A stretch of 64,000 nt of DNA, from assembly GCF_018457165.1 (NCBI RefSeq), contig NZ_JAFMNX010000004.1:124001-188000 (forward strand), written 5' to 3'. This document shows, piece by piece, positions 21,834 to 48,944 of the stretch. The notes below the pieces were generated by a model that was not told the DNA's origin, ran no database searches, and saw only the letters and a list, made by a program, of their open reading frames with translations. The translations under genes were made by a program, and so were the position numbers. Numbering within the stretch: position 1 is the stretch's first letter; each line of letters opens with the position of its first letter. Source of the stretch: Tianweitania aestuarii. GTDB lineage: Bacteria; Pseudomonadota; Alphaproteobacteria; Rhizobiales; Rhizobiaceae.

Positions 21834-21842
21834 GACAAAACG

Positions 21843-21872
21843 TCACCCAGCCGGCAAGGGTCGGTTGGGTGA
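21843..21872 (+). repeat. Intercistronic hairpin after TRAP binding-protein gene
   Basis: TCACCCAGCCG (21843-21853) pairs with CGGTTGGGTGA (21862-21872) over 11 bp, with one G-U wobble in RNA and an 8-nt loop. It lies 10 bp after the dctP stop and before dctQ. No T-run follows. It is likely an mRNA-stabilising or attenuating element that raises binding-protein yield over the membrane subunits. Confidence 0.6.
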
Positions 21873-21934
21873 TCCAACTCTCATCGCCACAAAGGACACA
21901 GATCGTTCTTGATCTGAGGAGAGGCTATCCGATC

Positions 21935-23734: not shown

Positions 23735-23810
23735 GAGGTAGGTCGGTGCCGCAGGCACGGACCTGGCTCATCCCGCCGTCAAGAACATGCGCCGTATCTC
23801 GGAGAACAAC

Positions 23811-31597: not shown

Positions 31598-31763
31598 TTA
31601 GCATAAGGGTGAGACATATAAGTGTAGGCAAGTCTGCAACGTCCAGCCCCTTGCTATAGTCGATCGATGGATTAAAACTTAAGCGATATCTCGAGCGGGT
31701 CTCACCGTCAGCCGCCGCGGTACCGACGTTTCCACCATCTATCTGACCTGCTTGAGCTTAGTC

Positions 31764-32687
31764 ATGGCCACTCAAAGCGACACTAACGCCAGGGGCTTGG
31801 GCATCGGTTCGATTGCGGGGCCGGGCCTGATGTTGCTCGGCATGCTGATGTTTGCGTTGAACGATGCAATCGGAAAGTGGTTGGTCGCAAGCCATGGTCT
31901 CGGCCAGGTCATTCTCATCCGCAGCCTGGCGGCGTTGCTGATCCTGGCGCCGTTTCTTTGGATGGCGGGACGCAAGCCGATTATCACGGCCGAGCAGCCG
32001 CTCATGCAGGTGGCTCGGGTGCTGTTCTCGACCTTGGAGGTATTCTGTTTCTACTATGCGGTAATGTATCTGTCGCTGGCTGACGTGATGACCTACTGGC
32101 TAGCCGCGCCGATCTATGTGGCGGCGGCCTCGCCTCTTCTTTTGCGCGAGAAGGTCGGCTGGCGGCGGTGGACGGCAATCTTCGTAGGCTTTCTCGGCGT
32201 GATCATCACGCTGGAACCGTCCAGCGCAATGTTCACCATGCCCGCCATCATCTCGCTCGTCGGCACCTTCGCGTTCGCGTTCATGCTGCTGTCCGGCAGA
32301 AAACTTCGAGCGACACCGGACAAGACGCTGGTTTTGTTCCAGCTCGCAGGAGCAGGCTTCGCCGGTCTCCTGTTCGCTCCGTCGGACTGGAAGCCGATCG
32401 CGTCTGCCTCCCAGTTCGGCTTGTTATGTCTGCTAGGCGTCGTTGCGATGGGCGCGCACATGCTCGTTAACCGGGCACTGAAGATATCCGATGCGGCCAC
32501 GGTCGCACCCTTGCAGTATACGCTGCTTTTGTGGGCGATCATTTTCGGCTGGATGTTCTTCGGCGATGTCCCGCGCTTGAGCATGATGCTTGGCGCAACG
32601 CTGATCATCGGCTCCGGCCTGTTCATTTTCTTTCGTGAGCAACAGTTGAAGAAGCGCCAACCCGAGCCGCTTCTCGATCTACCCTGA
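31764..32687 (+). CDS. EamA/DMT-superfamily transporter
   Basis: 307 residues with ten hydrophobic segments in two repeats, the drug/metabolite transporter pattern. The first repeat ends with WLAAPIYVAAASPLLLREKVGWRRWTAIFVGFLGV, a typical EamA segment. The start ATG at 31764 is chosen over an in-frame TTG at 31752; neither has a strong ribosome-binding site. Members export amino acids, metabolites or dyes; the cargo here is unknown. It stands alone. Confidence 0.88.
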   Translation: MATQSDTNARGLGIGSIAGPGLMLLGMLMFALNDAIGKWLVASHGLGQVILIRSLAALLILAPFLWMAGRKPIITAEQPLMQVARVLFSTLEVFCFYYAVMYLSLADVMTYWLAAPIYVAAASPLLLREKVGWRRWTAIFVGFLGVIITLEPSSAMFTMPAIISLVGTFAFAFMLLSGRKLRATPDKTLVLFQLAGAGFAGLLFAPSDWKPIASASQFGLLCLLGVVAMGAHMLVNRALKISDAATVAPLQYTLLLWAIIFGWMFFGDVPRLSMMLGATLIIGSGLFIFFREQQLKKRQPEPLLDLP

Positions 32688-32773: not shown

Positions 32774-33778
32774 TTACTTACGGATCTCGGCAAGCTCCGC
32801 CATGATGCCTTCGACGACATCGGGGCCGATTTCGGCCTTGTGCTTGTCATAAACGACCATGGACTTCTCGCGAATGCGGGCCTGTTCTTCCGGCGACAGC
32901 ACATTCACCTCAAGACCGGCCTCCTTGATCTTTTCCAGCGACTTCTGGTTCAGATCGCCGATCACCTGGCGCTCGACATCGCGGCCGACCACGGCGCAAT
33001 CCTTGAGCGCGGCCTGCTCCTCGGGCGAATAGGTATCGAAGATCGCCTTGGAGAAAAGGAACAGGAACGGCGTATAAGCATGGTTGGTCTGGGTGACGTA
33101 TTTCTGCACTTCGAAGAACTTCGACGTGTCGATGGTCACATACGGGTTTTCCTGCGCATCGATCGTCTTGGTTTCGAGAGCCGAGAACACTTCGCCGAAA
33201 GCCATCGGCGTTGCGTTGGCGCCGAGGTTCTGGAAGGTGTCGAGGAAGACGTTGTTTTGCATGACACGAACCTTCATGCCTTCTAGGTCTTCCCACTTGT
33301 TCACCGGGCGAACCGAGTTGGACAGGTTGCGGAAGCCGTTTTCCCAATAAGCGAGGTTGATGAGGCCAACGGCCGCCAGCTTCTCGTCGATCATGTCGCC
33401 GAACTTGCCGTCCAGCACCTTGTAGGCTTCTTCCGAGTTGGAAAACAGGAACGGCAGATCGAACACGCCGAGGGCCGGCTCGATACCGACGAGTGGCGAC
33501 GAGGATGTGACCACGGCTTCCTGAACACCCGAACGCAGAGCTTGGGTTGCCTGCAGATCACCGCCAAGAGCGCCGCCCCAGAAGGTCGAAAGCTTCAGCT
33601 TTCCGCCCGACTTGTCATCAAGGCACTTCTGCATGGCCTCGATACCGTTTCCAACCGGATGATCGGCGTTGATACCGTTGGAGACACGGATCGTGCGCTC
33701 CGTGAACTCGGCAAAAGCAGGTACGGAGGCAGACAGGGTGCAGGCGATTGCAGTCGTGGCAAGCAGCAGTTTTCTCAT
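32774..33778 (-). CDS. TRAP transporter substrate-binding protein (DctP family), system 2
   Basis: 334 residues with a signal peptide ending at PAFA-EF (residue 23). The family segments FRNLSNSVRPVNKWEDLEGMKVRVM, with the ligand-binding arginine, and TPMAFGEVFSALETKTIDAQENP are present. It is the last gene of the minus-strand operon running from the XylX-like gene through dctQ and dctM. The likely ligand is the sugar acid degraded by the surrounding dehydratases (inference). Confidence 0.94.
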   Translation of the reverse strand: MRKLLLATTAIACTLSASVPAFAEFTERTIRVSNGINADHPVGNGIEAMQKCLDDKSGGKLKLSTFWGGALGGDLQATQALRSGVQEAVVTSSSPLVGIEPALGVFDLPFLFSNSEEAYKVLDGKFGDMIDEKLAAVGLINLAYWENGFRNLSNSVRPVNKWEDLEGMKVRVMQNNVFLDTFQNLGANATPMAFGEVFSALETKTIDAQENPYVTIDTSKFFEVQKYVTQTNHAYTPFLFLFSKAIFDTYSPEEQAALKDCAVVGRDVERQVIGDLNQKSLEKIKEAGLEVNVLSPEEQARIREKSMVVYDKHKAEIGPDVVEGIMAELAEIRK

Positions 33779-33823
33779 GATAATCCTCCCATGGATGTTG
33801 GTTTGAGAAACGGGTTCATCCCC

Positions 33824-35101
33824 TCAATGCAGCCACCGCGCTGGCACGATGACGATATCGGGAAACAGAACGAGCAGCATGAGGACAGCGACCTGGGCGA
33901 GGAGGAACGGCAGGATACCGGTCACGACCTTGCCCAGCGGAACGCGTCCAACACCGCTGACGACGTTCAACACGACACCCACCGGCGGCGTGATAAGACC
34001 GATGCAGCAGTTCATGATGAACATGACGCCGAAATAGATCGGATCGATACCGGCCTGCTTGATGATCGGCATCAGCACCGGCGTCAGGATCAGAATGGTC
34101 GGCGTGAGATCGAGTGCCGTGCCGACCAGAAGCACCAGCAGCATGATCACGAACATCAGCAGCACCGGGCGATCAATCAGCGGCTCGATATAGCCGACGA
34201 TTTCATTGGGAATGTTCGCCGCGGTGATGAGCCAGGCCGAAACGAGTGCCGCGCAGACCAGGAACATGATGACCGACGTCGTCTTGGCCGCCTGCAAAAC
34301 AACATGCGGCAGATCCGTGATCTTCAGCTCCCTGTAGATCACCACGCCTACGAACAAGGCGTAAGCGGCCGCAACAACCGCGGCTTCCGTCGGTGTCATG
34401 ATGCCGGCCTTGATGCCGCCCAGGATAATGACCGGCATGCCTAAAGCCCAGGCAGCACGCCCTGTCGCGGCAAGGCGCTCCCTGGCCGGCGCTTTGGGCA
34501 GGGGTTGAACATTGTCCTTTCGCACAACGATCAACCAGGCCGCTATCAACGACAGGCCCATCAGGATGCCCGGCACGATGCCGGCCATGAAGAGTTGGGT
34601 TATGGACACATTGGCAGCAACACCAAAGACGATGAAGGCCATTGATGGCGGGATAACCGGGGCGATGATACCGCCGCTGGCAATCAGACCAGCCGAGCGT
34701 GGCACGTTGTAGCCTGCCTTAGCCATCATCGGGATCAGGATCGCGGCGAGAGCGGCGGTATCGGCAGCGGCCGATCCGGAGATGCTCGCCATGATGATCG
34801 CAGCCATGATGGCTACGATGCCCAGACCGCCTCGAATGTGCCCGACGCAGGCGATTGCAAACTGGATGATCCGCTTCGACAATCCGCCGGCATTCATCAA
34901 CTCGCCAGCCAGAACGAAGAAGGGGATCGCGAGGAGCGTGAATGTGTCGGCGCCGATGATCATGTTCTGGGCAATGATCTGGCTGTTATACATCCCCATG
35001 AACCACATGAGGATGACGCCGCAGAACACCAGCGCAAAGGCAACCGGCACGCCGATCGCCATGGCTCCGAGAAGCGATGCGATAAACACCAGAAGGGTCA
35101 T
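33824..35101 (-). CDS. TRAP transporter large permease (DctM family), system 2
   Basis: 425 residues with about 12 membrane segments. Motifs include FTLLAIPFFVLAGELMNAGGLSKRI, SGSAAADTAALAAILIPMM and VIPPSMAFIVFG. The start overlaps the dctQ stop by one base (TGATG). A 45-bp gap separates it from dctP downstream. It is the sodium-coupled transport subunit. Confidence 0.95.
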   Translation of the reverse strand: MTLLVFIASLLGAMAIGVPVAFALVFCGVILMWFMGMYNSQIIAQNMIIGADTFTLLAIPFFVLAGELMNAGGLSKRIIQFAIACVGHIRGGLGIVAIMAAIIMASISGSAAADTAALAAILIPMMAKAGYNVPRSAGLIASGGIIAPVIPPSMAFIVFGVAANVSITQLFMAGIVPGILMGLSLIAAWLIVVRKDNVQPLPKAPARERLAATGRAAWALGMPVIILGGIKAGIMTPTEAAVVAAAYALFVGVVIYRELKITDLPHVVLQAAKTTSVIMFLVCAALVSAWLITAANIPNEIVGYIEPLIDRPVLLMFVIMLLVLLVGTALDLTPTILILTPVLMPIIKQAGIDPIYFGVMFIMNCCIGLITPPVGVVLNVVSGVGRVPLGKVVTGILPFLLAQVAVLMLLVLFPDIVIVPARWLH

Positions 35102-35649
35102 CAGCCGCGCTCTGCCAGATGCTCGAGAGATGTATGTTCACCGGCAAAGGCGCCGATTTCTTCTTCCGTGATGCGGCCGGTGAGGACACGAAGCAGGCGT
35201 TCAAGCGCGATGATCACGCATCCCCCGCCTGTAAACAGTCCGATCCCGTACACCCATCCCATGGACAGCCCCGTCACCGGGGCGCTCATGCTGGTGTTGA
35301 TCGGCAATTGCTTCCAGGTTCCCCAGAAGAAGATGCCCGAACAGGCGATGATCAGGATGTTGCTGAGTGCCATGCAGATGAGGCGGCCATTGCGCCCGAA
35401 CCGGACGACCACCGTTTCGACGCCCATATGCGCGTAATCGCGGAATCCGACCACCGCGCCGATGAAGGTCAGCCAGACAAAGAAGTAACGCGACAGTTCA
35501 TCCGAAACCGTCAGCCCGGAATTGAAGGCGTATCGAAGGATGACATTGCCGAACACCATGATCGACATGCCCGAAAGAAGCAGGATCATCAGGAGTTCAA
35601 GGAACCGGTAGAATAAATCAACGGCTTTCTGCACCTGCTTGCCTCTCAT
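35101..35649 (-). CDS. TRAP transporter small permease (DctQ family), system 2
   Basis: 182 residues with four membrane segments. The conserved SDELSRYFFVWLTFIGAVVGFRDYAHMGVE segment is the DctQ signature. It starts 6 bp after the XylX-like stop and ends in a one-base overlap with dctM. Confidence 0.92.
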   Translation of the reverse strand: MRGKQVQKAVDLFYRFLELLMILLLSGMSIMVFGNVILRYAFNSGLTVSDELSRYFFVWLTFIGAVVGFRDYAHMGVETVVVRFGRNGRLICMALSNILIIACSGIFFWGTWKQLPINTSMSAPVTGLSMGWVYGIGLFTGGGCVIIALERLLRVLTGRITEEEIGAFAGEHTSLEHLAERG

Positions 35650-35655
35650 TCCACC

Positions 35656-36816
35656 TTACAAAAGGCCGCGCTTGGCCAGGTTTTTCATCAAAGCGCCGAC
35701 GCCGAAGGTCCATTCCGGGCAGGCATCGCTGCGATCCACCCAGTTCACGAGGCGGCCGAGAGAGGGTGTCGAAATTTCGACTCGGTCGCCGATCTCGTGG
35801 GTAAAGCCCTGCCCTGCTCCGCGACGATCCTTGACCGGAGCAAACATCGTCCCGAGGAAGAGCACCGCGCCATCGGGATATTGGTGGTTGCGATTGCGCA
35901 GCTGGCCGGCAAGGTCGGCGGGCTTGCGGCTGATCGCTTCCATCGCGCTCTCGCCGGTCATGCGAAAGCCGTCCTGCCCTTCGACAACCAAGCCGACCCG
36001 AACCCTGCCGAGCGTTTCCAGCGTGAATTGACCGTCGAACAGGCGGATAACGGGACCGATGGCGCAGGACGCGTTGTTGTCCTTCGCCTTGCCGAGCAGC
36101 AGCGCCGAGCGCCCTTCGACATCGCGCAGATTGACGTCGTTGCCGAGCGTTGCCCCAACGATGTCGCCGGACGCCTGAAGAACAAGCACGATTTCCGGCT
36201 CTGGATTGTTCCATTCCGACATCGGATGGATGCCGACCAACGCACCGCACCCGACCGCGGACATCGGCTGTGACTTGGTGAAGATCTCGGCATCCGGTCC
36301 GATACCCACTTCAAGATATTGCGACCACAGGTTCATGTCCTGCAACAGCGCCTTAACGCTCGCCGCCTGCTCGGAACCGGCGACGAGGCCACGAAGACTG
36401 TCGCCCAGAACCGGCGCCAAACGCTCGCGGATCTCCAGGGCGCGCTTTGCGTCACCCCTCGCCTGCTCCTCGATCACCCGTTCCAGCATGCTGTCTGCAA
36501 AGGTGACGCCGGCGGCCTTGATGGCCTGCAGGTCGATCGGAGCCAGCAGGACGCCAGCCTGTTCGGACAGGAAGTCGTCAACAGAGCCGAGATCAGGAAG
36601 GTCTCGCGCCGCTTTCAGGGTCTGGACGAGATTGCCGAGTTCAAGGAGCGCCGAAACGGTTGGCGAAACCGACGACAAATCCAGCACGCGCTCGCCGCGA
36701 ATGAGAACCGGGCATGGTCCCTCTGCGGAATGGGACCAGACGCGGCCGATCAGAAGCGCGTCCGCCGCATCTTCCGGCAGAATCGCGGAAGCACGAAGCG
36801 ACTTGTTGGAATGCAA
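35656..36816 (-). CDS. FAH-family 2-keto-3-deoxy-pentonate dehydratase, XylX-like
   Basis: 386 residues, the length of Caulobacter XylX. Characteristic blocks are LLGRVW-like opening, LAPIDLQAIKAAGVTFADSMLERVIEE, LWSQYLEVGIGPDAEIFTK, WNNPEPEIVLV with the metal-binding acidic residues, and KAKDNNASCAIGP. XylX converts 2-keto-3-deoxy-D-xylonate to alpha-ketoglutarate semialdehyde in the Weimberg route. The start is a TTG at 36816, set by GGGGGAGG 6 nt upstream; an upstream ATG at 36981 would overrun the operator at 36870-36888. It heads an operon with TRAP genes. Function rests on by-eye resemblance to XylX. Confidence 0.85.
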   Translation of the reverse strand: MHSNKSLRASAILPEDAADALLIGRVWSHSAEGPCPVLIRGERVLDLSSVSPTVSALLELGNLVQTLKAARDLPDLGSVDDFLSEQAGVLLAPIDLQAIKAAGVTFADSMLERVIEEQARGDAKRALEIRERLAPVLGDSLRGLVAGSEQAASVKALLQDMNLWSQYLEVGIGPDAEIFTKSQPMSAVGCGALVGIHPMSEWNNPEPEIVLVLQASGDIVGATLGNDVNLRDVEGRSALLLGKAKDNNASCAIGPVIRLFDGQFTLETLGRVRVGLVVEGQDGFRMTGESAMEAISRKPADLAGQLRNRNHQYPDGAVLFLGTMFAPVKDRRGAGQGFTHEIGDRVEISTPSLGRLVNWVDRSDACPEWTFGVGALMKNLAKRGLL

Positions 36817-36869
36817 GCAACACCTCCCCCATGTCTCCAGCAAGGCAGCCCTCCCGCCAACTTGCCGGA

Positions 36870-36888
36870 TTGTCAGAATGTCTGACAA
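36870..36888 (-). promoter_or_regulatory. Palindromic operator upstream of the XylX-like gene
   Basis: TTGTCAGA-ATG-TCTGACAA is a perfect 8-3-8 palindrome. It lies 54 bp upstream of the TTG start of the XylX/TRAP operon and 130 bp from the GntR/FCD regulator gene. It shares the TTRTCAGA arm with a second dyad at 39272-39290 at the other divergent promoter of the cluster. It is the probable binding site of that regulator. Confidence 0.65.
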
Positions 36889-37018
36889 CGGTAGTTGTAA
36901 GACGTACCCACAGTTCCCGTCCCTGTCCAGCGCTGAAAACCACACGGAATGAACGACAACTTGGGAAAGACGATCTTCCACTACAGGCCGCCGCCGAGCG
37001 GCGCCATAATACTTTCAG

Positions 37019-37732
37019 CTAGCTTTCCAGAACCAGATCAAGTCGTGCGGCTGCACCAAGCAGATGCTTTTTCATGGCCTCGCGCGCACGCTGCGGATCG
37101 CGGCTGGCGATCGCGTCACGGATCGCCACATGCTCGGCGATCGTCACTTCCACGATCTCCTCGAGAGCTGCCACGGCTCGTGCAGCGTTGATGGCAAGGC
37201 TGATGCGCTCGGCTATGAAGCCGACAAACAGCGCGAAATATTCATTGCCGGTCGCCGCCGCGATGATGCGATGAAACAGCAGATCGGCCACGATTCCCTG
37301 GTCGGTCCATTTTTCTGCCCCCATCATCGTGGCCAGGCATTGGTCGAGCTTCACCAGATCGCTGTCGGCATGGTGTCTTGCCGCCAGGCCGGCGGCTTCG
37401 ATTTCCAGCGGCATGCGCAGGTGGAACAGATCCCGGAAGCTCGCCCGATCATGAAGGTCGTCCTGCTCGATGCGGATCGTTTGGCGTGCCTTCATCTCGG
37501 TGGCGAATGCACCGACACCTTGTCTGGTTTCAACGAGACCCTCGTTGCGCAACTGGGCAATCGCCTCGCGAACAACCGAGCGGCTGACGCCGAAGCTGCT
37601 GGCCAGAAAGTGCTCCGTCGGCAGCTTGCTTCCAGGCAAAATGTGGCCGTCCGTTATCTCGCGCGCCATCTGGGCAGCAATTCGCGCCGGAAGATGCTCG
37701 CTGCGCCTGATCTGACCGAAATCGAGTGACAT
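37019..37732 (-). CDS. GntR-family transcriptional regulator, FadR/FCD subfamily (sugar-acid cluster)
   Basis: 237 residues. The winged helix-turn-helix (ILPGSKLPTEHFLASSFGVSRSVVREAIAQL, quoted in part) is followed by an FCD domain from about residue 95, with histidines (FHLRMPLEIEAAGLAARHH, LLFHRIIAAATGN) that usually hold a metal and a carboxylate ligand. It lies 24 bp after the FAD-oxidase gene on the same strand. Two dyads in the cluster are its likely operators. It should be released by a pathway intermediate such as a 2-keto-3-deoxy acid (inference from the family). Confidence 0.93.
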   Translation of the reverse strand: MSLDFGQIRRSEHLPARIAAQMAREITDGHILPGSKLPTEHFLASSFGVSRSVVREAIAQLRNEGLVETRQGVGAFATEMKARQTIRIEQDDLHDRASFRDLFHLRMPLEIEAAGLAARHHADSDLVKLDQCLATMMGAEKWTDQGIVADLLFHRIIAAATGNEYFALFVGFIAERISLAINAARAVAALEEIVEVTIAEHVAIRDAIASRDPQRAREAMKKHLLGAAARLDLVLES

Positions 37733-37756
37733 GCCGGAACTCCAAAAACCTGCCTT

Positions 37757-39226
37757 CTATGAAGGCCGCTCGTACTCCAGTTGGCAACCCGGATTCATCA
37801 ATCCTTGTGGATCCACGGCCTGTTTCAGCGCGGCAAGCAGTGCCCTTTGCGCCGGCGCGATGCGGGCTTCATGTTCGGTCCTTTTTAAGCGGCCGATACC
37901 ATGTTCGGCGCTGAGCGAGCCGTTGTAAGCATCGAGAACCGTATTGATGGCCTTCTTCGCATCATGAATGCGCGCCTCGATCTCGTTCCGCGAAAGGCCG
38001 GCCGGCGGCAGAACGTTCAGATGAACATTGCCATCGCCGATATGCCCATAAGAAACGCAGATCGCGTCCGGCACGACGTCAATCACCGCCTGCTCGGCTT
38101 CGCGGACGAAATCAGGAACTTGCGACAACCGCACGGAAAGGTCGGTACGCAGATGCGGCCCACGCTTCGCCTGGCCTTCGTTCATGCCTTCGCGGAACAG
38201 CCACAGATTGCGCGCTTGTGCCGTCGAGCTGGCGATGACCCCATCCGCGACCAGTCCTTCCTCCATGACGGCTTGAAGAAACCGTTCCGTCAGGTCGTTG
38301 ATGTCGACCAGACCGGAGCCGGATATTTCCAGAAGCACGTAGGCGGCATGATCTCCAGATATCGGCATCTCGAGGTCGGGAATTGCTTCGCGGGCGAGAC
38401 CGAATGCCACCGGCGGCATGAACTCGAAGGCAGACATCAGGTCACAACAGTCGCGCCGGGCGCGGCGGAAAAGCGCGATCGCATCATCGAGGGAATTGAG
38501 CCCCAAAAGCGCCGTGGCGACCTGATCGGGCTGCGGCGCGAGCTTCACCGCCACCGCGGTGATGATGCCGAGCGTGCCTTCCGCGCCAATGAAGATCTGC
38601 TTGAGATCGATGCCGCGATTGTCCTTGCGAAGCGTCGACAGCCCGTTGAGAATCGACCCGTCCGGCAACACGCATTCGAGACCGAGCACCAGTTCCCGTG
38701 TCATCCCATAGCGCAGAACGTTGATGCCGCCGGCATTGGTCGAGACATTGCCGCCGATACGGCAGGACCCTTGTGCGCCAAGCGCCAGCGGAAAGAACAT
38801 GCCTTCGCATGCAACCGCGTCCTTGAAGTCCGAAAGAATGCAGCCGGCCTCTACCACGGCAGAGAAATCATCAGGGTCGATGCGGCGAATGGCGTTCATG
38901 CGCTCCAGGCTGATCACCACTTGATCGGCTGGTCGATCAGGCAGCGCGCCAAGAACGAGACCCGTATTGCCGCCTTGCGGAACGATCGACAAACCGAGGC
39001 GCGCGCAGGTTTTGACCGCATCGGCCACTTCGTTGGTGGTGCGCGGGCGCAGGACCGCCACCGCTTCCGACGTCACATCGCCATGCCAGTCCCGGCAATA
39101 TTTCTCAGTAGCCGGTCCGGAAAGAACCATGTCGTCACCAAGCGCCTGAACCAGCAAGTGGATGCAGTCCGATTGCTGTCTGGCGTTCACAACTGGATCG
39201 ACTTGTCCACTCACCTTCGCTTCCAC
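37757..39226 (-). CDS. FAD-binding oxidase, D-2-hydroxyglutarate/D-lactate dehydrogenase group
   Basis: 489 residues. An N-terminal FAD_binding_4 domain shows PQGGNTGLVLGA and GGNVSTNAGGINVLRYG; a C-terminal FAD-oxidase domain carries SYGHIGDGNVHLNV and EHGIGRLKR. The group oxidises D-2-hydroxy acids and passes electrons to a carrier. It is cytosolic or peripheral; no signal peptide is seen. It is divergent from the DenD-like gene across 137 bp and followed by the regulator. In this cluster it may oxidise a sugar acid or a 2-hydroxy-acid by-product; the substrate is not determined. Confidence 0.9.
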   Translation of the reverse strand: MEAKVSGQVDPVVNARQQSDCIHLLVQALGDDMVLSGPATEKYCRDWHGDVTSEAVAVLRPRTTNEVADAVKTCARLGLSIVPQGGNTGLVLGALPDRPADQVVISLERMNAIRRIDPDDFSAVVEAGCILSDFKDAVACEGMFFPLALGAQGSCRIGGNVSTNAGGINVLRYGMTRELVLGLECVLPDGSILNGLSTLRKDNRGIDLKQIFIGAEGTLGIITAVAVKLAPQPDQVATALLGLNSLDDAIALFRRARRDCCDLMSAFEFMPPVAFGLAREAIPDLEMPISGDHAAYVLLEISGSGLVDINDLTERFLQAVMEEGLVADGVIASSTAQARNLWLFREGMNEGQAKRGPHLRTDLSVRLSQVPDFVREAEQAVIDVVPDAICVSYGHIGDGNVHLNVLPPAGLSRNEIEARIHDAKKAINTVLDAYNGSLSAEHGIGRLKRTEHEARIAPAQRALLAALKQAVDPQGLMNPGCQLEYERPS

Positions 39227-39271
39227 CTTTCGAACCGGTCAGCCAAATATCTGTTTTCAACGCAACGGTAT

Positions 39272-39290
39272 AAGGTTATCAGACAACCTT
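39272..39290. promoter_or_regulatory. Operator dyad in the divergent promoter of the sugar-acid cluster
   Basis: AAGGTT (39272-39277) and AACCTT (39285-39290) flank ATCAGAC, giving a dyad whose core TTATCAGACAA resembles the arm TTGTCAGA of the dyad at 36870-36888. It lies between the divergent FAD-oxidase and DenD-like genes, 46 and 74 bp from their starts, so one bound repressor could control both directions. Confidence 0.6.
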
Positions 39291-39363
39291 ACAATAGGAT
39301 TGTTGTCGCACCGCTGTTTCTTGAAAGCCAGGCGGTTCGCAGGCGACGGGGAGGCCGCTCACT

Positions 39364-40350
39364 TTGCATATTCTGATTATCGGTGCCGCCGGCATGGTGG
39401 GACGCAAGCTCACGCAGAAGCTCGTCAAAGACGGGAAGCTCGGCGAGCGTGCGATCGATGCGTTGACACTGGCCGACATGGTCACGCCCGATGCTCCCCA
39501 CGGCTTTGAAGGCAAGGTGACGCTCCAAACGGCAGACCTTTCCGCGCCGGGCGAAGCAGCGCGTCTCATAGGCGCGCGCCCAAATGTCATCTTCCATCTC
39601 GCTGCCATCGTGTCGGGCGAGGCCGAACTCGATTTCGCGAAGGGCTACCGCATCAATCTGGACGGCACGCGCTACCTGTTCGATGCAATCCGCGAAGCCC
39701 ATGATGTCGATGGCTACAAGCCGCGGGTGGTCTTCACATCCTCCATCGCCGTCTTCGGCGCTCCCCTGCCCTATCCCATTCCCGACGACTTCCACACCAC
39801 GCCGCTCACCAGCTACGGCACGCAAAAGGCTATCTGCGAGCTTCTGCTGTCGGATTATTCGCGCAAAGGCTTCTTTGACGGCATCGGCATTCGCCTGCCA
39901 ACCATATGCATTCGCCCGGGAAAGCCGAACAAGGCGGCGTCCGGCTTCTTTTCGAACATCCTGCGCGAGCCTCTTGTGGGACAGGAAGCCGTTTTGCCGG
40001 TGTCGGACGATGTGCGCCACTGGCATACCTCGCCGCGCTCAGCCGTCAGCTTCCTCGTTCATGGCGCGAAGATCGACGTAGAGACGGTCGGCCCAAGGCG
40101 CAATCTGTCCATGCCCGGCCTGAGTGCAACCGTCGGCGAGCAGATCGAGGCGCTGCGCCGTGTCGCCGGAAACAAGGCTGTGGCGCTGATCCGGCGCGAG
40201 CCGGACGAAATGGTGATGCGCATGTGCGCCGGTTGGGCACCAGGCTTCGAGGCAAAGCGGGCAACGGCGCTCGGCTTCGAGGCCGAAACATCCTTCGACG
40301 ACATCATCCGGGCCCACATCGAAGACGAACTTGGTGGCGCCTTGCAATGA
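39364..40350 (+). CDS. NAD-dependent epimerase/dehydratase, D-erythronate dehydrogenase (DenD)-like
   Basis: 328-residue extended SDR. The N-terminal GAAGMVGRKL cofactor motif and the catalytic YGTQK motif (Tyr-x3-Lys) are present. The pattern around HLAAIVSGEAELDFAKGYRINLDGT is characteristic of DenD-type proteins. The apparent start is TTG at 39364, with GGGGAGG 9 nt upstream. DenD oxidises D-erythronate to its 2-keto form; a related aldonic acid is equally possible here. It is first in a three-gene operon in which each gene overlaps the next. Confidence 0.87.
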   Translation: MHILIIGAAGMVGRKLTQKLVKDGKLGERAIDALTLADMVTPDAPHGFEGKVTLQTADLSAPGEAARLIGARPNVIFHLAAIVSGEAELDFAKGYRINLDGTRYLFDAIREAHDVDGYKPRVVFTSSIAVFGAPLPYPIPDDFHTTPLTSYGTQKAICELLLSDYSRKGFFDGIGIRLPTICIRPGKPNKAASGFFSNILREPLVGQEAVLPVSDDVRHWHTSPRSAVSFLVHGAKIDVETVGPRRNLSMPGLSATVGEQIEALRRVAGNKAVALIRREPDEMVMRMCAGWAPGFEAKRATALGFEAETSFDDIIRAHIEDELGGALQ

Positions 40351-41258
40351 AAGGAGAAGAAGAACCAAAGCGGCCGCGCATCGCCTTTCTTGGAACCGGC
40401 CTCATGGGCGCACCGATGGCGCGCCGCCTTTTGCAGGCAGGCCATAGGGTAACGGTCTGGAACCGAGATCCAGCCAAGGCACAGGCTCTGCATGCAAACA
40501 AAGCCGTTGTCGCGCCCACAGCAGCTGATGCGGCACGCGATGCGGATGTCGTCTTCACCATGCTGAGCGATGGCGATGCGGTGAACGATGTCCTGTTCAA
40601 CCAGGGCGTGGCGGATGTGCTCCGAGCAGGCGCGGTTGTTGTCGACACATCGTCGATCGCACCACCTATTGCCCGCCGCCATTGCGAATTGCTCGCAGCG
40701 CGTCAGGTGCATCATGTCGATGCTCCCGTGTCTGGCGGTGTTGTTGGTGCAGAAGCGGGTACGCTTGCGATTATGGCGGGCGGTGATGGGGCCGTTATCG
40801 AGAAGCTCGCAAACCTGTTCGGCGTGCTTGGTCGTGTGACGCATGTCGGCCCTTCGGGCTCAGGCCAGATCTGCAAGCTCGCCAATCAGCAGATCGTCGC
40901 CATCACCATCGGCGCCGTCGCCGAGGCCATGATGCTGGTTGAGGCCGGTGGAGCGGATCGCGGCCGGTTCCGTGACGCGATCCGGGGCGGGTTTGCCGAA
41001 AGCCGCATCCTGGAGCTTCACGGCAAGCGGATGGTGGATCGCGCCTTTGAGCCAGGAGGCCCTTCGCGCTTGCAGCTGAAGGATCTCGATGCCGTCGCGG
41101 CCATGTCGGAAATGTTCGGCCTCACCTTGCCGCTGACCTCCTTGATACGGGACGAATTTCAGCAGTTCGTTGCCGAAGGTGGCGGCGAGATCGATCACAG
41201 CGGACTTCTGCTGCATCTCGAGACGATGAACGATCGCCAGGGGAGACCGGTTCGTTGA
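40347..41258 (+). CDS. NAD(P)-dependent 3-hydroxyisobutyrate-dehydrogenase-family oxidoreductase
   Basis: 303-residue beta-hydroxyacid dehydrogenase. The cofactor motif FLGTGLMGAPMA is near residues 14-25. The substrate motif DAPVSGGVVGAEAGTLAIMAGG and the catalytic-lysine region GSGQICKLANQQIVA are intact. The start overlaps the DenD-like stop (ATGA at 40347). The family includes L-threonate dehydrogenase LtnD, tartronate semialdehyde reductase and 3-hydroxyisobutyrate dehydrogenase. It would oxidise or reduce a short hydroxy acid in the sugar-acid pathway; which one is not clear. Confidence 0.88.
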   Translation: MKGEEEPKRPRIAFLGTGLMGAPMARRLLQAGHRVTVWNRDPAKAQALHANKAVVAPTAADAARDADVVFTMLSDGDAVNDVLFNQGVADVLRAGAVVVDTSSIAPPIARRHCELLAARQVHHVDAPVSGGVVGAEAGTLAIMAGGDGAVIEKLANLFGVLGRVTHVGPSGSGQICKLANQQIVAITIGAVAEAMMLVEAGGADRGRFRDAIRGGFAESRILELHGKRMVDRAFEPGGPSRLQLKDLDAVAAMSEMFGLTLPLTSLIRDEFQQFVAEGGGEIDHSGLLLHLETMNDRQGRPVR

Positions 41259-43039
41259 GCGAAAACAACAAAGCAAGTCGCCGTCTTCGTTCGCAGGACT
41301 GGTTCGACAACCCGGATCATCTCGATCTGACGGCGCTGTATCTCGAGCGCTTCATGAACTACGGCACGACGCCGGAGGAACTGCGCAGCGGAAAGCCCAT
41401 CATTGGCATTGCCCAGTCCGGCAGTGATCTGAACCCATGCAACCGCCACCACCTCGACCTCGCCAAGCGGCTGCGCGACGGCATTCGCGATGCCGGCGGC
41501 ATTCCGATCGAATTCCCCACCCATCCGCTGTTTGAAAACTGCAAGCGTCCCACAGCAGGGCTCGACCGCAATCTTGCTTATCTCGGTCTGGTTGAGATCC
41601 TTTACGGCTACCCGCTCGATGGCGTTGTTCTGACCACCGGCTGCGACAAGACCACACCATCGGCCCTGATGGCTGCTTCCACGGTCGATATCCCGGCGAT
41701 CGTTTTTTCGGGCGGTCCGATGCTGGACGGCTATCATGATGGCGATCTGGTCGGCTCGGGCACGGTGATCTGGCGCTCGCGTCGAAAGTTCGCCGCAGGC
41801 GAAATCGACCAAGAGCAGTTCCTGGAAGCGGCGCTCAGTTCGGCACCCTCCATCGGCCACTGCAACACGATGGGTACGGCATCCACGATGAATGCCATGG
41901 CCGAAGCGCTCGGCATGTCGCTCACCGGATGCGCGGCCATTCCAGCAGCCTATCGCGAACGGGGGCAGATGGCCTATCGAACCGGCCGCCGCGCGGTGGA
42001 ACTGGTGCTGCAGGACATCCGCCCTTCGTACATCCTGACCCGCGCCGCCTTCCTCAATGCCATCATGGTGAATTCCGCGATCGGCGGCTCGACCAATGCG
42101 CAACCGCATCTGATGGCGATGGCCAAGCATGCCGGCGTCGCATTGAACGCCGACGACTGGCAGCTTCACGGCTTCGAAATTCCCCTGCTCGCCAACGTCC
42201 AGCCGGCGGGTGCTTATCTCGGCGAGCGGTTTCATCGCGCCGGTGGCGTGCCGGCGATCATGTGGGAACTGCTGCAAGCCGGTAAGCTGGATGGAAACTG
42301 TCCCACGGTCACTGGCAAGACGATGGCCGCCAACCTCGAAGGTCGCCAGTCCGATGACCGCGAGGTGATCAGGTCCTATGCCGAGCCCTTGCGCGAACGC
42401 GCCGGCTTTCTGGTGCTCAAAGGCAATCTGTTCGACTTCGCCATCATGAAGATGAGCGTCGTCTCGGAAGACTTCCGCAAGCGTTACCTCAGCGATCCCG
42501 GCCACGAAGGCGTGTTTGAAGGCAAGGCCGTCGTGTTCGACGGATCCGAGGATTATCACGCCCGGATCAACGATCCGTCGCTCGCCATCGACGAACGGTC
42601 GATCCTGGTGATCCGCGGCGCCGGCCCGCTCGGCTGGCCCGGCTCGGCCGAAGTCGTCAACATGCAACCGCCAGACCACTTGCTGAAACGCGGCATCATG
42701 AGCCTTCCGACGATCGGCGATGGCCGGCAATCGGGAACAGCCGACAGCCCGTCGATCCTCAATGCGTCGCCGGAAAGTGCGGCAGGCGGCGGCCTGGCTT
42801 ATGTCCGGACCGGCGATGTCATTCGCATCGACTTCAATGCCGGCCGATGCGACATGCTGGTCGACGACGATGAAATCGAGCGGCGACACGGCGATGGCAT
42901 CCCGCAAGTCGCTGCCGACGCAACTCCCTGGCAGATGCTTTACCGGCAAACCGTGACGCAACTGGCCGATGGCGCAACCATCAGGAACGCAGACACGTTC
43001 CGCCAGATCGCCAAGGTGCCGCCTCGCCACAACCATTGA
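41255..43039 (+). CDS. IlvD/Edd-family aldonate dehydratase (D-xylonate/L-arabinonate type)
   Basis: 594 residues, the length of the rhizobial pentonate dehydratases, with the same RHNH C-terminus. Iron-sulfur ligand positions are Cys62 (PCNRHH), Cys130 (TTGCDKTTP) and Cys203 (GHCNTMGT), matching the [2Fe-2S] pattern of that branch. SGTADSPSILNASPE is the conserved active-site region. It removes water from an aldonate to give the 2-keto-3-deoxy acid, the substrate of an XylX-type enzyme such as the one at 35656-36816. The apparent start is TTG at 41255, overlapping the upstream stop, with AGGGGAGA upstream. Confidence 0.92.
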   Translation: MSENNKASRRLRSQDWFDNPDHLDLTALYLERFMNYGTTPEELRSGKPIIGIAQSGSDLNPCNRHHLDLAKRLRDGIRDAGGIPIEFPTHPLFENCKRPTAGLDRNLAYLGLVEILYGYPLDGVVLTTGCDKTTPSALMAASTVDIPAIVFSGGPMLDGYHDGDLVGSGTVIWRSRRKFAAGEIDQEQFLEAALSSAPSIGHCNTMGTASTMNAMAEALGMSLTGCAAIPAAYRERGQMAYRTGRRAVELVLQDIRPSYILTRAAFLNAIMVNSAIGGSTNAQPHLMAMAKHAGVALNADDWQLHGFEIPLLANVQPAGAYLGERFHRAGGVPAIMWELLQAGKLDGNCPTVTGKTMAANLEGRQSDDREVIRSYAEPLRERAGFLVLKGNLFDFAIMKMSVVSEDFRKRYLSDPGHEGVFEGKAVVFDGSEDYHARINDPSLAIDERSILVIRGAGPLGWPGSAEVVNMQPPDHLLKRGIMSLPTIGDGRQSGTADSPSILNASPESAAGGGLAYVRTGDVIRIDFNAGRCDMLVDDDEIERRHGDGIPQVAADATPWQMLYRQTVTQLADGATIRNADTFRQIAKVPPRHNH

Positions 43040-43090: not shown

Positions 43091-45055
43091 TCAACGCCGG
43101 TTCAACAGCCAGACGAGATAAGGTCCGCCCACCAGGGCGGCGACGAGGCCGATCGGGAGTTGGTAGGGGAAGGCCAGCGTGCGGGCCATCCAGTCGGCCA
43201 GAACCATCAAGGCAGCGCCGATCAGAACCGCGCCGATGAGCTGCGGGATCGGTCGAACAAAGCCTGCGAGGCGCGCCATATGCGGCGCCATCAGGCCGAC
43301 AAAGGAAAGCGGCCCGACAAACAGGGTCGAAGCGGCGGACAGAAGGGCGGCGATCAGCACAAGTATGCTTGCAGCCAGGCTGCGCTTCAGTCCAACCGAC
43401 TGAGCAAACGACAAGCCAAGCGGCAGAACCTGCAGCCAGCGTGCCAACAGCGGCAAGGGCGCGATGAACAGCACGGCAGCAGCCAGTGCGGTCATCGCAT
43501 CTTCAGGCGAAACGCGCGAGGTCGAGCCGCTCAGCCAGTTCAGCAACCGCAGCGATTCCGGCCCTCCCCGCGCCATCACGACGGTGACGAGCGCGCCGGC
43601 CAGAGAGCCGACCGCGATGCCTGACAGAAGAAGGCGTTCTGCCGCAAAGCGATGACGCGCTGATAGGGCGATCACCAGGAGGATCGCGATCACGGCCCCG
43701 GCTGCAGCGCCGCCGAGCTCGACCAGGCGCGATGCAGCAGGCATGAACACGAGAACTGCGGCCAACCCGACCCCCGCGCCAGAGGATATGCCGAGCACTT
43801 CGGGGCTCGCCATGGCGTTGCCGGTTATGCGCTGCATCAACACGCCGGCCGCTGCCAGCATTGCACCGGCTGCGGCGGCCGCGATGAAGCGCGGCGCTCG
43901 CCAGGGTACCACGAGATCTAAGATGTGACCCGTTGCGAGCGCCCAGCCCTCGCCGTTCTTGCCGACAAACAGCGCGCAGGCAGCAAGCACAAGGAGCAGC
44001 AAAGCCGGGAAAAGAAGGCGCCAGGATGCCGCTCTGGCGGCCAGAACGACGCTTTGCTGCGTCACCCGAAGCGAGCCGCCGAGACGCGGCAGCAGCCATA
44101 AAAGAAGCGGGCCCCCAAGAAGCGCGGTGGCGGCGCCCGTCGGCACTGTTTGGCTGATCCCCAGCGACACGAGCCGCACCAGACCGTCTGTCATGAGCAG
44201 GATCAGGGCACCGGCGATCGGCGACAAAAACAGGATCTGCCGCAGGGTTCGCGCACCTGCCATGCGCGCGAGGTTGGGCGCGGCAAGACCGATGAAGCCG
44301 ATGACACCAACCTCGGCCGTCACCGACGCTGCGAGGAAAACCGAAAGCGTCAGCACCGCGAGCCGGGTTCCCGTGACGCCAAGGCCGAGCGCCCTTGCAT
44401 TGGCGTCGTCCAGCGCCAGAAGCTCGAGGGGCCGGATCAGCAAACCGGCGACAACGGCCGCGAGAACGAAGCGGATAACGAGCGAAATGGTCGGCGCCCA
44501 GCTTTGCTGTTCCAGCGAGCCGCCGCCCCAGATGAACATCGACATCATGTATTCGCCATTGGCGAGGATCAGCGTTGCCGAAAAGGCGGCAGCGATCAGC
44601 GAGATCAGCATGCCGCTGAGAACAACGGTGATCGGATCAAGCGCGCGGCGCCAGGAAAGGGCGACCACCAGAAACAGCGCAAGCGCGCCACCAACGAAGG
44701 CCACGCCTTCCCGGGCAACGGCCATCAGACCAGGCGCATAAAGAAGCGCCGCACTCATCGCGAGCTGCGCGCCCGAAACAACACCGAGCGTCGACGGGTC
44801 GGCGATCGGATTGCGCAACACGCGCTGCATCAACGCACCCGCGAGCCCCAATGCGGCGCCCGCTAGAAGTGCAACAGCGCCGCGTGGCAGCGTCGCGTAA
44901 AAAAGGATGAGCCCCGCCAGCCGATCGCCGGGTGCCGGCCAGTCACCGACAATCTGCCAGCCGAACAACATGGCCGTCAGCAGGCCTAAGCCCGCCAGAA
45001 GGAGGGTCGCTGACAGTGTCGGGGTCGTGGCCAGCCGGAGGCGATTTAGGCTCAT
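43091..45055 (-). CDS. fhuB: Iron-siderophore ABC transporter permease, FhuB type (double length)
   Basis: 654 residues. Two tandem FecCD permease halves (about 1-330 and 340-654) are fused, as in ferric-hydroxamate FhuB, each with about ten membrane segments. Each half carries FecCD blocks such as GFIGLAAPNLARMAG and PLSFVGLMAPHMARLAG. The start overlaps the FhuD-like stop by four bases. It is last in the receptor-fhuC-fhuD-fhuB operon and is convergent with the dehydratase gene. Confidence 0.95.
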   Translation of the reverse strand: MSLNRLRLATTPTLSATLLLAGLGLLTAMLFGWQIVGDWPAPGDRLAGLILFYATLPRGAVALLAGAALGLAGALMQRVLRNPIADPSTLGVVSGAQLAMSAALLYAPGLMAVAREGVAFVGGALALFLVVALSWRRALDPITVVLSGMLISLIAAAFSATLILANGEYMMSMFIWGGGSLEQQSWAPTISLVIRFVLAAVVAGLLIRPLELLALDDANARALGLGVTGTRLAVLTLSVFLAASVTAEVGVIGFIGLAAPNLARMAGARTLRQILFLSPIAGALILLMTDGLVRLVSLGISQTVPTGAATALLGGPLLLWLLPRLGGSLRVTQQSVVLAARAASWRLLFPALLLLVLAACALFVGKNGEGWALATGHILDLVVPWRAPRFIAAAAAGAMLAAAGVLMQRITGNAMASPEVLGISSGAGVGLAAVLVFMPAASRLVELGGAAAGAVIAILLVIALSARHRFAAERLLLSGIAVGSLAGALVTVVMARGGPESLRLLNWLSGSTSRVSPEDAMTALAAAVLFIAPLPLLARWLQVLPLGLSFAQSVGLKRSLAASILVLIAALLSAASTLFVGPLSFVGLMAPHMARLAGFVRPIPQLIGAVLIGAALMVLADWMARTLAFPYQLPIGLVAALVGGPYLVWLLNRR

Positions 45056-45918
45056 GCCACGCGCTTCAATTCTTCAGCGAGTAGACGCGCAAAACGCCGT
45101 GCTGCCGGCAAACCACCGAAGGGGTTGATGTTCGGCAACCAAACGGTGCGGCCTTCCCGCACCGCCGGCATCGCCCGCCACAACGCGCTCTGCGGCAAGG
45201 TCCGTGCAGCTTCGGGAGGAACGGGACCAACCACGGCGATGATCGCATCAGGATGATCGGCAAGGCTTTCAAGACCCACCGGCGCGGCTGCGCTGTAAGC
45301 GGTTCTCGTTGCCCAGGAGTTCACGAAGCCCATCCGCGCGGCAACATCGCCAAACATGGAGTCGCTTCCGAATGCACGAAAGTGCCTGGCATCACCCAGA
45401 TTGATGATCAGGATCGGACGTTGCCGCTGACGCGCCAGCCGTTCGCCCGTTGCCGCAAGAAAATGCTCCGTTTCAGAGATATAGGTCTCGGCTCGTGCTT
45501 GAAGACCCTGATCGCCAGCCATGCCGCGCATGGCGGCAACGGCCTTTTCGAAGGGTGCTTGCCCGCGCAGATAAATGCTGAACTCGCGCACGGGCGCCAT
45601 GCGCATCAGCGTGTCGTTGGCCCAGGCCGAATAATTCGATCCATAGATGAGGGACGGCTGCAGGGTGGCGAGAAGCTCGAAGTTGAGTGCGCCGCGAAGC
45701 CCGAGATCGATGATGCCATCCGGCAGTGCCGGCTCGGCCACGATCTTCTGGTAAAGCACGAGCTCCACGGCCGCCATCGGCTTCAGCCCAAGCGCCAGCG
45801 CCGTTTCCAGCAGCGCCCAGTCGACAATGGCGATGCCCCCTTCGTCAGCGCGCGCGGAGGCAAAAGGCAGCGCAAGACTGCCGGCAAAAAGCTGAAGAAG
45901 GTTGCGGCGGGTTCTCAC
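45052..45918 (-). CDS. fhuD: Iron-siderophore binding protein, FhuD type
   Basis: 288 residues. The start is a GTG at 45918 overlapping the ATPase stop (GTGA); a longer upstream frame would run through the ATPase gene. The N-terminus RTRRNLLQLFAG is a twin-arginine motif followed by a hydrophobic segment ending near ASARADEG, so Tat export is likely, as for E. coli FhuD. The body is a class III periplasmic binding protein with a long central helix. It delivers a ferric siderophore to FhuB. Confidence 0.9.
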   Translation of the reverse strand: MRTRRNLLQLFAGSLALPFASARADEGGIAIVDWALLETALALGLKPMAAVELVLYQKIVAEPALPDGIIDLGLRGALNFELLATLQPSLIYGSNYSAWANDTLMRMAPVREFSIYLRGQAPFEKAVAAMRGMAGDQGLQARAETYISETEHFLAATGERLARQRQRPILIINLGDARHFRAFGSDSMFGDVAARMGFVNSWATRTAYSAAAPVGLESLADHPDAIIAVVGPVPPEAARTLPQSALWRAMPAVREGRTVWLPNINPFGGLPAARRFARLLAEELKRVA

Positions 45919-46730
45919 CGGACGAACGCGACGGGAATGCCGCTGTCGGGATGGGTGAACAGCCCCATCGAGATCCCGTAGATCCGCTCGAGCACGTCCG
46001 CGCGCATGATGTCGGCCGGTGTGCCATCGGCGACAATGCGGCCCGATCCCATGGCCACCAGCCGGTCGCAGATGCGCGCTGCCATGTTGATGTCGTGCAG
46101 AACGACAACGACGCTGAGACCGCGCTTTCGGGCAAGGTTGCGCACGAGATCGAGCATTTCGGTTTGATGTGAGATGTCGAGGGCGGATGTCGGCTCGTCC
46201 AGCACGAGGCATTGGGTGTCCTGCGCAAGAAGAAGCGCCAGCCACACACGCTGACGCTCGCCGCCCGACAGGGTGTCGACCAGGCGCGCACGGAACGGTG
46301 TGACGCCGGTCTGATCCATCGCTTCGGCGACCTTGGCGCGGTCCACAACCGTGAAGCGCCCGAAGGTGCCGTGCCAGGGAAAGCGGCCAAGCGCGACGAA
46401 TTCTTCGACATTCATGCCATCGGTGCTCGGCATGAACTGCGGCAGATAAGCCAGCCGACGCGCGAAAACCCGATCGCCTTGGCTCTGGATATCCTCGCCG
46501 CAAAAATGGATGCGCCCTGAGGCAGGCACTTCCTGCCGGGCCAGCATCTTCACCAGCGTCGACTTGCCGGAACCGTTGGGCCCGATCAGGCCATGGATCT
46601 GCCCTGCTTCCATACGCAGATCGAGGCTCTCGATGATCGAGCGCCCCGGAACACGAAACGAGACCCCCGCCAGATCAAACAATGCATGCTTGCTAGCGGC
46701 AGGTCTCGCGGCTGACGCTTCCGCTACCAT
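45915..46730 (-). CDS. fhuC: Iron-siderophore ABC transporter ATP-binding protein, FhuC type
   Basis: 271 residues. Walker A is GPNGSGKST at 50-58, the signature is LSGGERQR, and Walker B is CLVLDEPTSALD. The RLAYLPQ Q-loop and EFVALGRFPWHG are typical of FecE/FhuC ATPases. Its first seven bases overlap the receptor's 3' end. A later in-frame start is possible, since the first 14 residues are unconserved. It powers FhuB. Confidence 0.93.
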   Translation of the reverse strand: MVAEASAARPAASKHALFDLAGVSFRVPGRSIIESLDLRMEAGQIHGLIGPNGSGKSTLVKMLARQEVPASGRIHFCGEDIQSQGDRVFARRLAYLPQFMPSTDGMNVEEFVALGRFPWHGTFGRFTVVDRAKVAEAMDQTGVTPFRARLVDTLSGGERQRVWLALLLAQDTQCLVLDEPTSALDISHQTEMLDLVRNLARKRGLSVVVVLHDINMAARICDRLVAMGSGRIVADGTPADIMRADVLERIYGISMGLFTHPDSGIPVAFVR

Positions 46731-48895: not shown

Positions 48896-48944
48896 TGCCG
48901 GCCATCCCCATTCCAAACCGCATTGGCCTGTACATGCCATAACA

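Follow-up and report, generated by a model that had tools for sequence, protein, structure and literature searches.

Which sugar acids are degraded by a gene cluster that unites a tripartite ATP-independent periplasmic (TRAP) transporter with two dehydratases of Weimberg type, and what is left in it for three further oxidoreductases to do? We address this question for positions 32774-43039 of a 64,000-nucleotide stretch of Tianweitania aestuarii DNA (contig NZ_JAFMNX010000004.1, positions 124,001 to 188,000; hereafter the window), from a genome of 3.83 Mb in seven contigs. With a probability of roughly 0.7, the cluster encodes a Weimberg pathway variant that is fed by the TRAP transporter and extended by three oxidoreductases. 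Over 592 residues its IlvD/Edd dehydratase matches the biochemically characterised Caulobacter D-xylonate dehydratase CcXyDHT (5oyn) at 73% identity, its FAH-superfamily protein is 55% identical to that of a xylose Weimberg cluster of Niveispirillum (locus L174), and the complete nine-gene set recurs, always in the same order, in 45 of the 64 related loci (Rhizobiaceae, Brucella and Rhodobacterales), which is far beyond chance. An initial annotation, made from the letters of the window, is borne out in part: its genes are right and, by homology, so is its core pathway.

Organisation and distribution of the cluster

The nine open reading frames (ORFs) are intact, include every protein that the initial annotation had named, and are arranged as two divergent operons. 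On the minus strand lie, in the order of transcription, the genes of an FAD-linked enzyme (the FAD enzyme), a GntR/FCD regulator, the FAH protein and the TRAP subunits DctQ, DctM and DctP; on the plus strand, a DenD-like short-chain dehydrogenase/reductase (SDR) is followed by a reductase of the 3-hydroxyisobutyrate dehydrogenase (HIBADH) family and by IlvD/Edd. The features are as follows.

32774..33778, minus strand: DctP, CxaP-like TRAP receptor (TIGR00787, over cut-off; best Protein Data Bank (PDB) match 7bbr)
33824..35101, minus strand: DctM, TRAP large permease (Pfam and NCBIfam match)
35101..35649, minus strand: DctQ, TRAP small permease (PF04290)
35656..36816, minus strand: putative FAH-superfamily 2-keto-3-deoxypentonate dehydratase, 386 amino acids, TTG start (homology and residue pattern)
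36870..36888, minus strand: palindromic operator 1, FAH-TRAP promoter, TTGTCAGACATTCTGACAA
37019..37732, minus strand: GntR/FCD regulator (PF00392 and PF07729)
37757..39226, minus strand: FAD-linked 2-hydroxyacid dehydrogenase (closer to D-2-hydroxyglutarate dehydrogenase than to GlcD)
39274..39288, minus strand: palindromic operator 2, divergent promoter of the FAD enzyme and DenD, GGTTGTCTGATAACC
39364..40350, plus strand: DenD-like extended SDR, NAD-type, own clade (NF043036, 373.5 bits, cut-off 325)
40347..41258, plus strand: HIBADH-family reductase, NADPH-type loop N39-R40 (TIGR01505, 270 bits, cut-off 341)
41255..43039, plus strand: IlvD/Edd aldonate dehydratase, D-xylonate type (NF009560, 1032 bits)
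31752..32687, plus strand: DMT/EamA transporter, conserved neighbour (TIGR00950, 56 bits, cut-off 230)

Pfam and NCBIfam profiles matched DctP, DctM, the GntR/FCD regulator, the FAD enzyme, DenD, the HIBADH-type reductase and IlvD, and DctQ was matched by Pfam; the FAH protein scored 22.6, slightly below the Pfam cut-off of 23.9, and had no NCBIfam match at E ≤ 0.001. The plus-strand genes overlap, as the DenD stop codon and the HIBADH ATG (40347) share ATGA and the HIBADH stop codon runs into the TTG start of IlvD; the three are most likely translationally coupled.

A scan with the FAH protein gathered 79 loci, 64 of which also carry DenD and the GntR regulator; genes in unannotated loci were called by a simple codon-position score. 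Among the 64, IlvD is missing from 8, HIBADH from 14, the FAD enzyme from 7 and the TRAP genes from 2, counts that include two short contigs ending near the cluster (L050 and L078) and a locus whose FAD enzyme is a more distant one (L070). The initial annotation was right to suggest that a variant may be defined by the DenD, HIBADH and FAD genes: DenD is found in every one of the 62 loci whose TRAP receptor is orthologous (at least 60% identity), compared with 56 for IlvD, 56 for the FAD enzyme and 49 for HIBADH, and the 15 of 79 FAH loci without DenD all lack such a receptor too.

The 64 loci include Rhizobiaceae, environmental Brucella/Ochrobactrum, Pannonibacter, Paracoccus, Loktanella and Bordetella genomosp. 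4, and the cluster is also present on Sinorhizobium meliloti megaplasmids. Its distribution is patchy, since a receptor match at E ≤ 1e-130 occurs in 21 of 199 sampled family genomes (15 of these, the window's own counted, at 71% identity or more) and in neither of two same-genus genomes. One variant locus (L045) has no TRAP genes and no IlvD over threshold, and TctCAB-like transporter genes, named from sequence, lie near it. The S. meliloti tags SMa0241 and SMa0244 are presumably members of the cluster. PMC12542648 lists the epimerase SMa0241 and the FAD enzyme SMa0244 and, in the passages covered, names no substrate. No description of the cluster was found in the openly available literature, in listings of at most 20 titles and abstract openings each.

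Several neighbours of the cluster may be mentioned. The DMT/EamA protein is possibly an exporter; 51 of the 64 loci, in the extent fetched, contain a homologue of it. Directly beyond IlvD, the minus strand at 43091-48940 carries what appears from sequence to be an iron-siderophore uptake set (FecCD-like permease, binding protein, ATPase and TonB receptor). Elsewhere in the window, at 20856-24854 on the plus strand, lies another TRAP-like set, likewise read from sequence, with a zinc alcohol dehydrogenase-like gene behind it.

Proposed core pathway, uptake and regulation

In the proposed pathway, the CxaP-like TRAP transporter would import aldonates that arise outside the cytoplasm, for instance through the membrane pyrroloquinoline quinone (PQQ) dehydrogenase of the same cell. 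IlvD/Edd would then dehydrate a 2R,3S acid, most likely D-xylonate and possibly D-gluconate too, to 2-keto-3-deoxy-D-pentonate, the FAH-type enzyme would convert this into alpha-ketoglutarate semialdehyde (KGSA), and an unlinked aldehyde dehydrogenase would oxidise KGSA to alpha-ketoglutarate. The sequence itself establishes the genes, their order, the operators and the residue patterns; uptake and these three steps are assigned by homology.

IlvD enzymes are taken here to require 2R,3S acids, a rule applied to the named pentonates. The window protein retains the Fe-S cysteines, Ser493/Thr495 and the recognition helix, whose motif ALYLERFMNYG it has in common with CcXyDHT, as it has the C-terminal PRHNH. 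Cys62, Cys130 and Cys203, already pointed out in the initial annotation, are invariant in the 57-58 of 58 aligned relatives that carry a residue at the position. The equivalents of CcXyDHT Leu26, Glu29, Arg30, Trp171, Arg174, Glu463, Ser490, Thr492 and the C-terminal His, residues for catalysis or specificity named in PMC5770437, are invariant in the 56-58 of 58 relatives that carry a residue at the position; that of Arg174 is R176, which is invariant, the variable residue being two positions before it. With the host genome's own L-arabinonate dehydratase, which is over its model cut-off, the identity is 43%; the nearest relative seen outside such clusters, at 72%, belongs to the xylan/xylose Weimberg cluster of Niveispirillum. 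In sequence, the protein is what is expected of the aldonate dehydratase of a Weimberg cluster.

The FAH protein is also 55% identical to 9kkt and related to KdaD (2q18); a literature search found no paper on 9kkt/9kkv. The catalytic Glu, the metal ligands and the Lys (Glu177, Glu206, Glu208, Asp227, Lys245) are kept in 78-79 of 79 FAH relatives, all 79 of which have Ser109 where the hydrolase His would stand. At this stretch two small FAH proteins (L086 and L127), which we take from their context to be hydrolases of Route III, a pathway weighed below, have GLNYxDHAAE; both motifs were matched by eye, MAFFT having left the stretch unaligned. We rejected an acylpyruvate or diketo-acid hydrolase because the His of the His-Glu pair is replaced by Ser109, and it is the residue pattern that points to a 2-keto-3-deoxypentonate dehydratase. 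In the passages covered of PMC6336799, an FAH protein of COG3970 converts D-2-keto-3-deoxypentonate into KGSA. The claim that IlvD and FAH together turn a pentonate into KGSA is thus supported by homology, and by homologues of an aldehyde dehydrogenase behind IlvD in two relatives.

The initial annotation had noted the absence of a sugar dehydrogenase, a lactonase and a semialdehyde dehydrogenase. Among the nine genes, Pfam and NCBIfam models indeed find no sugar 1-dehydrogenase, lactonase or aldehyde dehydrogenase, but a candidate for the last step lies elsewhere in the genome. Out of 13 aldehyde-dehydrogenase matches in the host, the candidate KGSA dehydrogenase (C4:235065-236582) is found ~68 kb from the cluster and adjoins an L-arabinonate dehydratase, an AraD1/GguC protein and sugar-ABC genes. 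The region around it (C4:228000-247000) is another non-phosphorylative cluster, which also holds SMP-30-like and DgoK-like genes, these two named by eye. Within a neighbourhood that extended ~4 kb beyond IlvD for most loci, homologues of the candidate (61-65% identity) occur at most 2.3 kb from IlvD in five of the 64 loci. In L027 (26-base gap) and L042 the homologue is the next gene after IlvD and shares its strand, no kinase or aldolase intervening; in L054 it is a neighbour of IlvD, and in L009 and L020 DgoK/DgoA-like genes (named by eye) separate the two. The assignment as KGSA dehydrogenase rests on context because the model scores are low.

The nearest PDB entry to the receptor DctP is 7bbr (44% identity over 326 residues), which we take to be CxaP, a sugar-acid receptor. 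Both share YWENGFRN and RVMQN, where 4p47 instead has YWELGFRN and RTLQS. The view that ready-made aldonates are taken up by TRAP also agrees with two PQQ dehydrogenases: a membrane glucose-type gene adjoins IlvD in Qingshengfaniella, and the host genome encodes a single one, also of glucose type, which lies amid nucleotide-sugar genes at C1:356000-368000 and exceeds its model cut-off by a narrow margin (833.0 against 832.65). When the cluster loci were probed for sugar dehydrogenases and for lactonases of SMP-30 type, only scattered matches appeared. In the window itself, an SDR at 7575-8336 (minus strand), 24 kb from the cluster and adjoining a sulfatase-like gene, has XylB D-xylose 1-dehydrogenase as its best NCBIfam model (294 bits, cut-off 400).

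Comparison of the DNA upstream of the FAH gene across relatives revealed a palindrome, TTGTCAGACATCCTGACAA. A ribosome site comes after it and, in several of the relatives, a TTG as well. In the window the TTG at 36816 is preceded by the ribosome site GGGGGAGG; the start was set there and not at 36981, from where a longer ORF could be read, because the upstream part of that ORF overlies the conserved operator. The consensus of operator 1 is matched with at most three mismatches in 49 of the 64 loci, and the remaining 15 (14 Rhodobacterales and the Bordetella locus) have at least five. Operator 2, at the same tolerance, is present in all 58 regions examined, the other six loci having no detectable FAD enzyme gene. 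The GntR gene, itself a selection criterion for these loci, sits between DenD/FAD enzyme and FAH in 64 of 64. Its product is probably the repressor of both operons and would act at the two palindromes until it binds a metabolite of the pathway.

The half-pattern shared by both operators, TTGTCWGAYAW, has seven matches in the genome against none for a backward control. Of the five outside the window, those of L111 and L112 fall within genes, that of L114 coincides with the start codon of an SDR gene, and those of L110 and L113 lie where no gene is clearly called. As none is in a clear promoter, a wider GntR regulon was dropped. A shuffle test (two observed in the window, 0.18 expected) adds little because the pattern was derived from those same two sites.

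Added oxidoreductases and rival readings

The DenD-like protein (P0007) is the sole protein of the host genome above the cut-off of the D-erythronate dehydrogenase model NF043036, and it is 41% identical to the DenD of a canonical otn operon. In a tree of 44 rows (the window, 20 of the 64 cluster loci, L128, L130, five annotated non-cluster loci and 16 others), the 23 cluster DenDs form one clade with support 100/98, and most otn-linked rows stand far off on long branches; the 16 others come from 30 unnamed order loci, the remaining 14 of which failed a motif filter. Nearer to the cluster clade are L163, beside otnK and ltnD, and the mixed locus L127, a Nitratireductor plasmid region that brings together otnK, IlvD, denD, an SDR, a small FAH, a HIBADH-like gene and ltnD. 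The placement of three rows is unsure because of long branches. His144 and His221 are both present in 23 of 23 cluster rows and in three of the 21 others. Neither the window cluster nor its annotated relatives L084, L123 and L128 hold OtnK, OtnI, OtnC or LtnD. A DenD group at ~67% lies beside sugar ABC transporters, and in S. meliloti near, though outside, an otn operon. The closest structure, 2hrz, is 82% identical, was deposited as a nucleoside-diphosphate-sugar epimerase and presumably originates from Agrobacterium. An AlphaFold model of DenD was too poor for use (mean pLDDT 57).

Asp38 of DenD, which we take to be of NAD type, is found in every aligned row (n = 65, one non-cluster row included), and N39/R40 of HIBADH, which we take to be of NADPH type, in 51 of 51. 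The HIBADH protein falls short of the tartronate semialdehyde reductase cut-off (TIGR01505). The FAD enzyme scores 346 bits against 3pm9, 281 against the D-2-hydroxyglutarate dehydrogenase 6lpn and 176 against the glycolate oxidase 9qgz. A homologue (50%) in Halomonas follows FAH and an enolase-superfamily protein in a stretch where DenD was not found, and the FAD enzyme therefore seems tied to 2-keto-3-deoxy-acid chemistry and not to DenD. On that plasmid (PA16-9, L173 9777-13722), gene calls give the FAH and enolase-superfamily genes in two pieces each, and DUF1537-like and PdxA-like genes and a TRAP set are near the homologue.

The roles of all three enzymes are conjectural. The NAD/NADPH polarity and the coupling of DenD, HIBADH and IlvD in this order suggest a succession of oxidation, inverting re-reduction and dehydration, in which aldonates whose C2/C3 configuration is wrong for IlvD would most likely be oxidised by DenD and reduced again by HIBADH into a form that IlvD can use; the FAD enzyme would most likely oxidise a 2-hydroxy by-product, such as 3-deoxy-pentonate or D-2-hydroxyglutarate. 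We offer more tentatively the idea that the cluster is a stereochemical funnel in which an epimerase pair of DenD and HIBADH converts aldonates unsuited to an IlvD dehydratase, such as D-ribonate or D-lyxonate, to D-xylonate. If true, one TRAP system and one dehydratase would serve several sugar acids, and the orphan structure 2hrz would be an aldonate dehydrogenase.

A number of observations weigh against the TRAP-fed Weimberg variant. The recognition-helix residues do not fix the substrate of IlvD, because 7m3k, named a galactonate dehydratase, has a nearly identical helix, and the receptor shares just 44% identity with 7bbr. The candidate aldehyde dehydrogenase falls far short of all KGSA dehydrogenase models in score and lies close to the cluster in just the five loci given above, and no further clear operator was found in the genome, the gene of this candidate included. 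The constancy of FAH is by construction, because the loci were gathered with it, and a Qingshengfaniella locus found via the FAD enzyme (L130) has the cluster except FAH. The Weimberg route does not need DenD, yet it is DenD that is present in 62 of 62 receptor loci, against 56 for IlvD and 49 for HIBADH. Finally, 14 of the 64 loci retain DenD but lack HIBADH, a loss that an obligatory epimerisation pair would not tolerate.

One rival is a hexonate pathway, in which the cluster degrades D-gluconate, D-galactonate or D-fuconate, or scavenges aldonates generally, with 2-keto-3-deoxy-hexonate as the IlvD product and FAH taking part of the flux. The absence of FAH from L130 and the DgoK/DgoA-like genes of L009 and L020 would fit, and CcXyDHT is reported also to accept D-gluconate (PMC9795676, PMC5770437) and CxaP to serve hexonates too (PMC12076931). 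The studied FAH of this type nevertheless acts on 2-keto-3-deoxypentonates, in the passages covered of PMC6336799, and in L027 and L042 the aldehyde dehydrogenase follows IlvD with neither kinase nor aldolase in between; we regard a hexonate pathway as unlikely. A four-carbon pathway for D-erythronate or threonate led by DenD is far less probable, and these acids are disfavoured as substrates. Its appeal lies in P0007 (373 bits against the NF043036 cut-off of 325, the sole such protein in the genome), in the denD annotation carried by relatives and in a DUF1537 protein beside an aldolase-like gene elsewhere in the genome, but the cluster is without OtnK, OtnI and OtnC, most otn-linked tree rows are distant (L163 and L127 being nearer) from a protein with 41% identity to the canonical DenD, and such a pathway has no place for IlvD and FAH. 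Elsewhere in the host (C2:552000-566000), a RuBisCO-like protein stands beside a DUF1537 kinase and TRAP-like genes, a set that we presume, from sequence and memory, to resemble D-apionate catabolism.

Equally improbable is Route III, in which DenD would oxidise 2-keto-3-deoxypentonate at C4, FAH would split the diketo acid into pyruvate and glycolate, the FAD enzyme would oxidise glycolate and HIBADH would reduce tartronate semialdehyde. It accounts for all four enzymes in one line, is known in Herbaspirillum (PMC6336799, passages covered) and suits a HIBADH protein nearest to tartronate semialdehyde reductases. The Ser109 found in 79 of 79 relatives, where the presumed Route III hydrolases have GLNYxDHAAE, argues against it, as do the FAD enzyme, which is closer to D-2-hydroxyglutarate than to glycolate dehydrogenases, and the genome's best glyoxylate carboligase score of 345 (cut-off 711), on which a Gcl-dependent glyoxylate route was dropped.

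Comparison with known systems

The variant is real and testable, with chemistry that is mostly known; what would be new is a TRAP-fed Weimberg variant with a DenD-like partner. It would tie a sugar-acid TRAP transporter to Weimberg-type enzymes in plant-associated bacteria, S. meliloti megaplasmids included, and offer a concrete route for sugar acids of extracytoplasmic origin. Direct tests are within reach, as the enzymes are few in number, soluble and easy to assay.

With the Caulobacter-type Weimberg pathway, represented by the Niveispirillum locus, the window cluster shares IlvD/Edd (72-73%) and the FAH dehydratase (55%) with the same residue pattern. That locus holds xylan hydrolases, FAH, an SDR, an SMP-30 lactonase, IlvD and a sugar porter under LacI control, whereas the window cluster has no sugar 1-dehydrogenase, lactonase or sugar porter, relies on TRAP uptake and GntR/FCD control, and adds three oxidoreductases. 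The import of periplasm-made aldonates would be shared with CxaPQM of Advenella, as described in PMC12076931 and PMC5812351; the window receptor is only 44% identical to 7bbr, and the passages covered do not mention a linkage of a TRAP system to IlvD and FAH. Herbaspirillum Route II/III clusters, in the covered part of PMC6336799, have the FAH-type 2-keto-3-deoxypentonate dehydratase in common with the window and differ in using another dehydratase family, a classical-SDR 4-dehydrogenase and a true FAH hydrolase. Compared with D-erythronate dehydrogenase, the window DenD shares the family and the NAD-type site and passes the model cut-off, but forms its own clade with His144/His221, at 41% identity and away from OtnK, OtnI and OtnC. 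The name denD is thus likely a misnaming in these clusters, and this protein and 2hrz may act mainly on substrates other than D-erythronate.

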